64,000 bases of DNA, from assembly GCF_001282685.1 (NCBI RefSeq), contig NZ_LN875035.1, positions 1,629,572-1,693,571 on the forward strand, given 5' to 3'. Positions 1,752-13,257 of this stretch are shown in pieces. The stretch is from Niameybacter massiliensis (lineage in GTDB: Bacteria; Bacillota; Clostridia; Lachnospirales; Cellulosilyticaceae). The notes below the pieces were generated by a model, which saw nothing but the letters and a program-made list of their open reading frames with translations, did no database searches and was not told the DNA's origin. Positions within the stretch are counted from its first letter, which is position 1. Each line of letters starts with the position of its first letter. Position numbers and translations under genes: made by a program.

Positions 1752-1782
1752 AACTTCAATCTAATACTAGTGTCTTTATGAC

Positions 1783-1877
1783 CGAAGGGAATGAATGTCT
1801 CCCTTGGACTTAGTATCCAAAACTGCTCTTACAAGCTGATGACTTCTGCCACAAGCAGGGTTATCAGCTTTTTTTGC
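1783..1877 (+). promoter_or_regulatory. Fluoride (crcB-type) riboswitch with terminator
   Basis: The first hairpin AAGGGA/TCCCTT (1785-1790/1800-1805) has the loop ATGAATGTC. Its GAA(T)GTC can pair with GACTTC (1841-1846), the pseudoknot expected of the fluoride aptamer. A small extra hairpin TTGGA/TCCAA (1804-1818) follows, then AAACTGCTC and GCTGATGACTTCTGC (1834-1848), which match the signature seen in known crcB aptamers. The GCTGATGACTTCTGC stretch also pairs with GCAGGGTTATCAGC (1855-1868) followed by seven T's, an intrinsic terminator that overlaps the pseudoknot strand. Fluoride binding would hold the aptamer and block the terminator, switching the gene on. Identified by recall of the consensus, not by a model search. 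Confidence 0.85.
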
Positions 1878-7639: not shown

Positions 7640-8109
7640 ATCATCTCTCCTCCTACGCCTATTTCTATTTACTTCATCTATCTTTATTGTTTATTTAAGT
7701 ACTTTATAAATGTATCTCTTTGTTCATATACTTTATTTTTACTTAGTTCTCTACATAGATTAAAATATATTGTTTAATAATATCCCATTTTTTTATTTTA
7801 TCCTCAAATAATGTATTATATCCAAATTTCTTTATTTCATAATTAAAAATAACCTGCATCTCTATGAAAGCAAATAAATATTTACTCGTAAAGTCATAAA
7901 ATGTTCTATTATATTATTTTTCAAAAATAATATCACCTTTTTGTGCAACCACTATTCCATTTTTGTTCCTATACTGCGAATATATTAAAATAGTTATTAT
8001 ACTCATTTCATCAGCAATATGTACAATTAACAACTTATCTTTTTATAAATATCTTACAATCCTCTATTCTTCCATCAAAAAATGTGACGGATTCTATCTT
8101 CTCATTTGT
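7640..8109. other. Gene-free AT-rich stretch
   Basis: About 470 bases. Short open frames exist (for instance 7963-8160 on the plus strand) but lack ribosome sites and have random-looking composition. I see no RNA gene, repeat or clear promoter here. It would be the 3' flank of the large RNA candidate if that RNA is read from the minus strand. Confidence 0.5.
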
Positions 8110-8690
8110 ATATATAGGTTAGAGGTTAAAACAATGCTAACTCTTCTTTCTAAAGTATGACCTTTTTACCTCTTAAAAGTTTTTATATAATGCAAAGATG
8201 GGCTACTAAGAACTCATCCTAGGCTGTTCTTTATAGCATTTCTTTATCTAAGAAAAGTTTTATATTTCTAGGTCCCCCTCTTACCTAAAATGTATATTAT
8301 TTTTCTTAGGATTGAATTTCTGTTAGCTGTGGCAAACTTCAGAAATTCATTGCATTATCCATATGCCTCACTCTTTTTTAGCTAAACTTAAGCTTCTTTT
8401 AGAATTTCAAGTTCTTGTAGTCTATGTTTCTAATGTGCACAATCTTAAAAGTTATTTAACTAGCAACTTATCGTGATCTATGCCTTGCATCCTTTCACTA
8501 ATAGACGCTTACTTAAGTCACTTACAAGACCATCCACTTATAAGTCATAGTTTACAAAAGCCTCATTCACTTTGAAGTTAAACCTAGCTTATTTCGTGAG
8601 CACTTTGCCACACAACAATAAAGCTAACCTAAACCTGTCCATTTGATAAAAGGGGGAGACAGTCTTGGGTTAGCTTTTTGTTGTTTATTC
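8110..8690 (-). ncRNA. Candidate large structured RNA (ROOL/OLE size class)
   Basis: A region without genes, about 580 bases, with dense long-range complementarity. Given in plus coordinates: a closing helix at the 5' end pairs 8612-8618 with 8678-8684 and 8620-8629 with 8668-8677 (17 bp, one bulge). Its loop 8648-8656 (CCCCCUUUU in the RNA) matches the nine-base loop 8274-8282 (AAGAGGGGG) of a hairpin TAGGT/ACCTA. 8604-8612 (UGUGGCAAA in the RNA) matches the loop 8328-8336 of a perfect 9-bp hairpin (8314-8322/8340-8348). A further 9-bp helix joins 8248-8256 with 8301-8309, and 8121-8131 pairs with 8164-8173. Several helices need G-U pairs only on the minus strand, fixing the sense. Length and folding resemble the ROOL and OLE classes; the assignment is inference. 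It may be cotranscribed with the gene ending at 8710. Confidence 0.72.
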
Positions 8691-12527: not shown

Positions 12528-12908
12528 TTATTCAAGACCACATAACTTTCTAAGATAAGCTATGAGTTCTAAGCTTTGATTGAGATAGTCTTCATATTCG
12601 TCTGGCTCGAGCAAGACATAATCTTCACTCTCATAACGTCTATCATAATAACTATCTGTCAAAAACCTGGCAATACGTTTAAAATCCTGTAATTCAGGAA
12701 ATGCCTCTTCAAGTTTAGCAATCATTGCTGAAAGACTATGACTACGCATAACTTCATTTGCATGTTCACGTACAAGATGTTTTAAGTATTTTTCTGCACA
12801 CTGCTGGCAGTTGACGATTGTAGGATCTTCCATCCCCTTTACATCTTTAATGTGTTGAATCAGTTCATAATCAGTGTTGGCAAAGTCAAGCATAGACCTA
12901 TTCACCAC
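12528..12908 (-). CDS. HEPN domain protein (partner of MNT nucleotidyltransferase)
   Basis: 126 residues from a GTG at 12908, which has GGAGG six bases upstream; an ATG at 12893 is the alternative. It overlaps the end of the nucleotidyltransferase gene by 11 bases. The helical sequence with NCQQCAEKYLKHLV and SYYDRRY is typical of HEPN proteins. In MNT/HEPN toxin-antitoxin pairs the HEPN member is an RNase silenced by adenylylation. A canonical R-x4-6-H ribonuclease motif is not obvious here, so an inactive or divergent HEPN is possible. Confidence 0.85.
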   Translation of the reverse strand: MVNRSMLDFANTDYELIQHIKDVKGMEDPTIVNCQQCAEKYLKHLVREHANEVMRSHSLSAMIAKLEEAFPELQDFKRIARFLTDSYYDRRYESEDYVLLEPDEYEDYLNQSLELIAYLRKLCGLE

Positions 12909-13257
12909 ACACCGCCTCCTTTAATGGCAGCATATATTTTGTAATTTCACTTTCAAATGAGAGTTTACTGGCTAACTCATAAAAACGTGCCTTATTATAA
13001 ATTTTCACATCTACTTCATAAGTGTAGTGTATTTTTTCCTCATAGTCTTCTCTTAAATCCATACGCAGCATCTTAGCTTCTTTCGGTGTTAAGGGTCTCT
13101 CTAATAAGATTAGAAGATCAATATCGCTGGTGGATTTAATTTCTCTTTTAGCATAACTACCAAAGAGATAAACTTCATACTCTCCAAGATCTAAAGCTTT
13201 AAAATGCTCATAGACTGCTAAAAGTCTTTCTTGATAGATACTAGGAATATCAATCAC
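12898..13257 (-). CDS. MNT-type nucleotidyltransferase
   Basis: 119 residues. The minimal nucleotidyltransferase signature is intact: GS at the start of GSYAKREIKSTSDID, exactly ten residues before DxD, and a third acidic residue in YEVDVKIY. The start is a GTG with only a weak purine-rich ribosome site; no better start exists. Members of this family transfer AMP to the partner HEPN protein and neutralise it. The gene is immediately upstream of, and overlaps, the HEPN gene, the standard arrangement. Confidence 0.88.
   Translation of the reverse strand: MIDIPSIYQERLLAVYEHFKALDLGEYEVYLFGSYAKREIKSTSDIDLLILLERPLTPKEAKMLRMDLREDYEEKIHYTYEVDVKIYNKARFYELASKLSFESEITKYMLPLKEAVCGE

Follow-up and report, generated by a model that had tools for sequence, protein, structure and literature searches.

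A strongly diverged, multi-copy family of structured RNA genes, recognised by no Rfam model, is present in the genome of Niameybacter massiliensis. It came to light at a single locus of the window, that is, the whole 64,000-nucleotide stretch of contig NZ_LN875035.1 that was analysed, and it comprises 26 intact copies on contigs C8 to C11 together with at least five truncated relics. The copies have in common a fold of about 450-540 nt, conserved and covarying, which is closed by two nested long-range loop pairings. The family probably consists of dispersed, self-contained non-coding RNA genes, read from the plus strand, whose product would be a trans-acting structural RNA. Few large ornate RNAs are known from bacteria, most of them without an assigned function. 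In this case the diversity of the copies in a single genome is enough for covariation analysis from one strain (median pairwise identity 45%, range 35-97% over 325 pairs, with an alignment that is rough at that level), and the 26 copies can be compared, deleted and probed side by side.

Common fold and covariation

The common architecture consists of a terminator-like hairpin, two nested long-range pairings (A and B) and further hairpins, which are listed for the window copy in Table 1; the partners of the two long-range pairings lie 285 and 383 nt apart in that copy. The original prediction, made from the window sequence, had described a large RNA of several helices, with no protein gene, on the minus strand, and most of its helices are found where it placed them. 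On that strand CCCCCTTTT (8656-8648) pairs with AAGAGGGGG (8282-8274) with one G-U, TGTGGCAAA (8612-8604) pairs with TTTGCCACA (8336-8328), and both downstream partners do lie in hairpin loops; CTAAGAAAA (8309-8301) and TTTTCTTAG (8256-8248) form a perfect helix of 9 bp, and the long hairpin that had been taken as the first helix is present at about 8620-8680. The energy of the window copy was lower than that of 100 dinucleotide shuffles in 100/100 cases on both strands (z of -5.07 on minus and -4.60 on plus). The reading as an RNA without a protein gene is likewise borne out, and a protein-coding reading was rejected, since the longest ORFs in the 26 copies are as a set no longer than in mononucleotide shuffles, whose mean is 47 aa and whose 95th percentile is 80; a single copy has a frame of 124 aa.

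Table 1. Features of the window copy and its surroundings (positions within the window)
Feature	Position	Strand	Remarks
Promoter-like element, GACGGA, 17 nt, TATATA	8086..8114	+	from sequence and, by eye, from likeness to the corresponding place in further copies
Proposed structured non-coding RNA gene, about 565 nt	~8121..8686	+	both ends predicted
Hairpin H3	8205..8235	+	self-complementary loop core CCTAGG at 8218-8223
Helix 8248-8256/8301-8309 around hairpin H2	8248..8309	+	H2 loop 8274-8282 is arm B2
Hairpin H1 (8314-8322/8340-8348)	8314..8348	+	loop carries arm A2 (8328-8336)
Central hairpin (minus: GTGAAAG..ATCAC)	8473..8498	+	in nearly all copies by eye
Arm A1	8604..8612	+	partner is 8328-8336
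3' hairpin with T-rich tail, intrinsic-terminator-like, bidirectional	8620..8686	+	loop 8648-8656 is arm B1, partner 8274-8282
Neighbouring convergent gene, 163 aa	8710..9201	-	no Pfam match; 23 nt from the predicted 3' end of the RNA

Covariation was assessed in two local alignments, one of the hairpin region (23 copies) and one of the other end of the RNA (21 copies). The first has 21 pairs with 82.1% of cells paired, 14 of the pairs showing changes on both sides; at the other end 81.2% of cells are paired and 15 pairs are changed on both sides. Cells changed on both sides number 51 in the hairpin region and 65 at the other end, against shuffled means of 20.4 and 24.8, and 0/500 shuffles reached the observed number in either alignment. 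Further pair types were not above shuffles in the hairpin region (404/500 shuffles reaching the observed value, as compared with 21/500 at the other end). When the partner was shifted by one column, the covariation score fell by about half or more (from 0.304 to 0.113 or 0.097, and from 0.410 to 0.191 or 0.205). For the helix 8248-8256/8301-8309 with H2, 89.4% of cells are paired and 5/10 pairs are changed on both sides (21 copies), while all 6/6 counted pairs of H1 are altered on both sides with 72.2% of cells paired. The central hairpin has apparently been lost from one copy (L027, by eye). Compensatory changes, which the original prediction had named as a check on its helices, are thus found among the 26 paralogues, with one exception: the stem 8121-8131/8164-8173 falls outside the common fold because the stretch of about 70 bases that holds it was not seen, by eye, in other copies. 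RNAalifold returned no structure from one of the alignments (A5), a result blamed on misaligned loops. All of the covariation is among paralogues, because no relatives were found outside the window genome; the 26 copies are not independent, and the permutation and shuffle counts given here are not probabilities.

The two long-range pairings both recur and covary across the 26 copies, beyond what chance would give. For arm A, the copies' own partners pair at -11.80 kcal/mol as against -10.47 for permuted partners, and 0/10000 permutations reached the observed value. An initial test of arm B, with loops taken from energy folding, could use 14/26 copies, and 76/10000 permutations reached the observed value; with the arms defined as pyrimidine and purine runs in all 26 copies, the energies are -19.31 (own) and -15.60 (permuted), and 0/20000 permutations reached the former, as was also the case with 23 de-replicated copies. 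Read on the plus strand, the same test gave 1/20000 for A and 0/20000 for B. The A pair is GUGGC:GCCAC in 22 copies and GGUGACA:UGUCACC in 4, having switched from the former to the latter. The uninterrupted B helix on the minus strand is at least 9 bp long in 23/26 copies (the exceptions are L019 with 5, L036 with 6 and L108 with 7), and on the plus strand, in wider windows, it is 7-14 bp long and at least 9 in 15/26. The mean length of pairing A, 7.5 bp, is unexceptional. Random windows reach 7 bp for A and 10 for B at the 95th percentile, so the evidence lies in the permutation test and not in length alone. In most copies the arm-B sequences of the H2 loop and the terminator loop resemble the Shine-Dalgarno and anti-Shine-Dalgarno sequences (GGGAGG, CCUCC), possibly by chance.

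The loop core of H3 is a Watson-Crick palindrome of at least 6 in 24/26 copies, and in one more with G-U, and its sequence varies between copies: CCUAGG in 17, UCUAGA in 5, GGUGGCCACC in 2, GGUGGCCGCC in 1 (self-pairing with G-U) and CCUGG in 1. The switch is thus among three main sequences, with few independent changes, and palindromes as long as that of H3 occur on average in 23% of other windows of the same RNAs. Sequence marks distinguish some subfamilies of the RNA: GGUGACA/UGUCACC together with UCUAGA for group D, and CCUCCCU/AGGGAGG for group A.

Copies within and beyond the genome

A BLASTN search of the source genome (G000) with the element returned six places, and a covariance model of the hairpin region built on these (R1) gave many more. 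Of the 28 R1 loci that were inspected, 25 are full copies, the others being a reverse-strand shadow and two partial or doubtful cases; the 26th copy, at C11:955225, was among further model hits. Two further models, a broader one of the hairpin built on 23 copies (R2) and one of the opposite RNA end built on 21 copies (R3), agree on the copies. R3 returned 25 places in the genome, missing the copy at C11:1155415, which R2 scored at 62.4 bits; it found the copy at 955225, which was absent from its training set, with 63.2 bits, and it matched the window copy, which was in the model, at 8196-8365 (+) with 96.2 bits. The relics (at 2601k, 1347k, 1348k, 1361k and 1368k) are truncated and retain the hairpin end and some of the body, and hits to the hairpin only (e.g. 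at 1306k, 1297k and 2810k) may be older relics or plain terminators. Eight hairpin hits, comprising copies, relics and hairpins, fall within 72 kb of contig C11 (about 1297-1369 kb), and five fall within 14 kb of the same contig (2600-2614 kb).

No real copy was found by R2 in 391 other genomes of the order or 390 of the class, nor by R3 in 294 other genomes of the order and 397 of the phylum, these genome sets being overlapping ones. A class-search hit of 51 bits (in genome G588) proved to be a plain terminator hairpin. The large runs were made under stricter filters, which recovered just 12, 12, 9 and 7 of the copies in the window genome, and so a genome with one weak copy may escape; restriction to one genome means one among those searched, in a collection that holds one genome per species. 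A BLASTN search with the element gave no match outside the window genome in 58 relatives, phages (50,697 records) and plasmids, and an exact pattern, which finds just 4 of the copies in the window genome, had no match in 145 other relatives. Within the bacterial family, R1 matched 20/23 other genomes at E<=0.1, with a maximum of 35.4 bits as compared with 101 in the window genome. The 28 loci retained from this search (L041-L068) are regarded as background hairpins, none of which has GTGGCA, TGCCAC and CTAGGA-type motifs together, a check that would miss copies like those of group D. A pattern scan of genome contigs gave 3 hits, in unrelated taxa, with no R2 match and at most 15.7 bits from R3; four pattern scans of viral contigs gave 0, 0, 0 and 2 hits, and the two hits of the last scan match neither R2 nor R3 at E<=1.

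The original prediction had suggested possible membership of the ROOL, OLE or GOLLD class, and this was not upheld. Rfam includes models of all three (that of ROOL being, presumably, RF03087), and the copy number of OLE and GOLLD per genome is, as far as is known, very different from that of a 26-copy family. At curated cut-offs, no Rfam family was found at any copy in the window and 19 related loci; the families that did exceed their cut-offs there were tRNA, fluoride riboswitch and RNase P, all at places other than the copies. The ROOL, OLE and GOLLD models matched neither at gathering cut-offs nor, in two copies, up to E=10, where what did match was weak and unrelated (best E values of 0.73 and 0.11). 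The open-licence literature, searched without the species name, yielded no description of the family that was recognised, and the alternative that had been left open, a new class, holds as far as was searched.

Transcribed strand and rival explanations

The RNA is probably transcribed from the plus strand, at about 8121-8686, in which case the first helix of the original prediction is its 3' terminator. The minus strand chosen there is probably wrong, as argued by G-U pairs, fold z-scores and promoter signals. The G-U pairs had been said to occur only on the minus strand. When the structures of 25 copies (four groups, without L013) were predicted with G-U disallowed, such pairs fell mainly on plus, with 43 G-U cells as against 24 A-C. 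Most of these come from groups B and D, and group C leans the opposite way (2 against 5). In the terminator stem, G-U and A-C cells on the plus strand number 28 and 2 in the outer part and 13 and 12 in the inner part, with 13 unpaired cells of the outer part lying in one column pair; a further alignment (A7) gives 40 and 29 on plus. The z-score is lower on plus in 20/26 copies (mean -5.1 vs -4.2, 25 shuffles each). On plus, the 160 nt that precede H3 have a best sigma-70-like site with p<0.05 in 5/26 copies (Fisher p=0.005), with TTGACT-17-TATAAT (L015) and TTGACA-17-TATATT (L022) as examples; on minus, the 72 nt at the opposite end give 2/26 and p=0.45. In 8/26 copies the convergent gene stops no more than 24 nt from the hairpin, so close that a promoter for an RNA read from that end would not fit. 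The start of the window copy is uncertain because its best site, TTTACC-15-TATAAT, is a different one from the promoter-like element of Table 1, lies nearer H3 and does not outscore shuffles (p=0.43); the -35-like box of that element is not consensus sigma-70. The T-rich tails of the terminator-like hairpin are about equal on both strands.

Transcription on the plus strand would run from a promoter upstream of H3 to the intrinsic terminator. H3, H2, H1 and the centre would fold first, and A and B would then close as the terminator hairpin emerges, the terminator's own loop being an arm of B and an arm of A lying just before it. With one arm each of A and B at the 3' end, the final shape would close only once the terminator has been made. 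The RNA is most likely a trans-acting structural RNA, perhaps a homodimer: the product would act as a scaffold, sponge or assembly unit, the RNA copies would meet via the H3 loop, and the genes would have multiplied by a copying process in which one border stays at the terminator.

Alternatively, the minus strand could be the functional one, giving the same RNA as a structured 3' UTR or a processed product of read-through from an upstream gene, with its start at the long hairpin. This is unlikely, even though pairing B is an exception to the G-U trend (26 on minus vs 9 on plus) and has the longer helix on minus (mean 11.2 vs 9.7 bp). The minimum free energy is also lower on minus in 16/26 copies (the window copy itself folds slightly better there), the consensus energy favours minus in groups A and B and plus in C and D, and 18/26 copies come after a same-strand gene in the minus reading. 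Against this stand the G-U pairs outside B, the z-scores, a promoter signal that is above shuffles on plus only, and the 8/26 copies that have no same-strand gene at the hairpin end on minus. The G-U bias and the promoter signal, which are expected of an RNA and not of single-stranded DNA, also bear on a quite improbable reading in which the element is selfish mobile DNA, its single-stranded fold being recognised by a transposase acting in trans (IS200/IS605-like or one-ended) and the RNA being incidental. Such an element would account for dispersed copies with unrelated flanks, for truncated relics that retain the hairpin end, and for the borders of the three youngest pairs, where homology stops within a few bases of the terminator and the other border is variable. 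In addition, a copy on C9 holds about 58 bases of the 3' tail of an unnamed gene that flanks its closest relative, and so was probably copied from such a place. The flanks of 16 elements, inspected by eye for inverted terminal repeats and target-site duplications, gave only one sharp border. Counting against mobile DNA, the long-range pairings have been kept at a median identity of 45%, and no transposase was recognised by inspection among the ORFs beside the copies.

A role as a cis-acting leader or attenuator of the gene beyond the terminator is very unlikely, given the orientation of neighbouring genes (ORFs of at least 90 aa, called mechanically). Read on plus, 8/26 copies lie before a same-direction gene on the terminator side, at 25-732 nt, and three of these genes are amidases (that of L011 by Pfam, those of L012 and L024 because they resemble it or one another); however, the other 18/26 face a convergent gene, so that a leader role could not hold for the family as a whole. 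On the other side, 14 copies are divergent from their neighbour and 12 follow a same-direction gene. It would be more surprising still if the family belonged, in diverged form, to ROOL, OLE, GOLLD or some other Rfam class, in view of the lack of any match above cut-off at a copy and of the weak, unrelated matches of two copies to E=10. What speaks for such membership is the size, the long-range loop pairings and the palindrome-switching loop, since in OLE and GOLLD a palindromic loop switches sequence, which is taken as evidence of homo-oligomers in PMC12286853. As described there, ROOL RNAs are large (the solved one has 659 nt), have no protein partner identified, contain pseudoknots and kissing loops, and are located in phages or prophages, often by tRNA islands. 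The RNA described here is likewise large and without an identified protein partner, with long-range loop pairings where ROOL has pseudoknots and kissing loops, but its copies have no Rfam match and no BLASTN match in phage or plasmid records. An octameric nanocage is a further feature of ROOL. The only tRNA of the window is 40 kb from the RNA copy.

Nearest in kind are the Lactobacillus plantarum supermotifs (LPSM), on which Wels et al. reportedly published in 2009. These are transcribed, stable, structured intergenic elements of 800-1000 nt in many copies, which were not found in other Lactobacillus species and are said to be cruciform, according to PMC5643018. The likeness is that of many copies in one species, there being 26 in the window genome and none in the searched genomes of the order; the supermotifs differ in being longer and cruciform, and the passages that describe them do not mention long-range loop pairing, the comparison being one of descriptions only. 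HEARO, the omega RNA of IscB/IsrB, is also a structured RNA, spread by a mobile element, and has many copies per genome in some species. It differs from the present family, which has no Rfam match and no IscB-like protein among ten Pfam-scanned proteins.

Possible assembly and neighbouring genes

Dimerisation of the RNA molecules through the self-complementary loop of H3 is a tentative proposal, drawn by analogy, and is somewhat doubtful; covariation does not assign contacts to one molecule or to two. An extension of the idea, which is decidedly improbable, is that one bacterium maintains several mutually exclusive self-assembling RNA sets, with the contacts serving as intermolecular addresses and each subfamily forming a homotypic particle. 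Group mean pairing energies agree with this only in part, in that the A arm of group D and the B arm of group A are selective but other groups cross-pair well. If the loops do drive assembly, the family would test whether natural RNA-only complexes of the OLE, ROOL and GOLLD kind are widespread, and whether several of them can be kept separate within a single cell.

Several copies adjoin amidase or GH25 genes. Three copies (L012, L013 and L024) belong to a module that also encodes a sigma-70 region 2 protein, DUF1659, DUF2922 and an unnamed protein (ORF325), the names being from Pfam at the L013 locus and by similarity at the other two. Because three copies sit beside it, the ORF325 family was examined: relatives occur in 8/245 other genomes, and 11 loci from six genomes with such relatives have no RNA counterpart by gene spacing, which makes the protein an unlikely partner of the RNA. 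The module itself recurs in the bacterial family (L085, L086, L077, L151 and L152, with Pfam names from L086 and the rest by similarity or by eye), its unnamed protein starting ..YYPELN..GS.TASLL..QLEYWF.

Some further features of these loci were observed. One RNA copy (L031 1744-2095, minus) has the RNase P RNA gene about 160 nt away, and another directly adjoins a Pfam HEPN gene (L069:3377-3760). Two small adjacent ORFs of the window (12528-13257, minus) have by eye the look of a HEPN protein and an MNT nucleotidyltransferase, and are presumably a toxin-antitoxin pair. The window also holds a fluoride riboswitch aptamer at 1778-1855 (+), with 35.9 bits against a cut-off of 34. At the end of contig C10 (L117 11977-12612) there are long tandem repeats that, by eye, are apparently collagen-like G-Q-N/D-G coding sequence.
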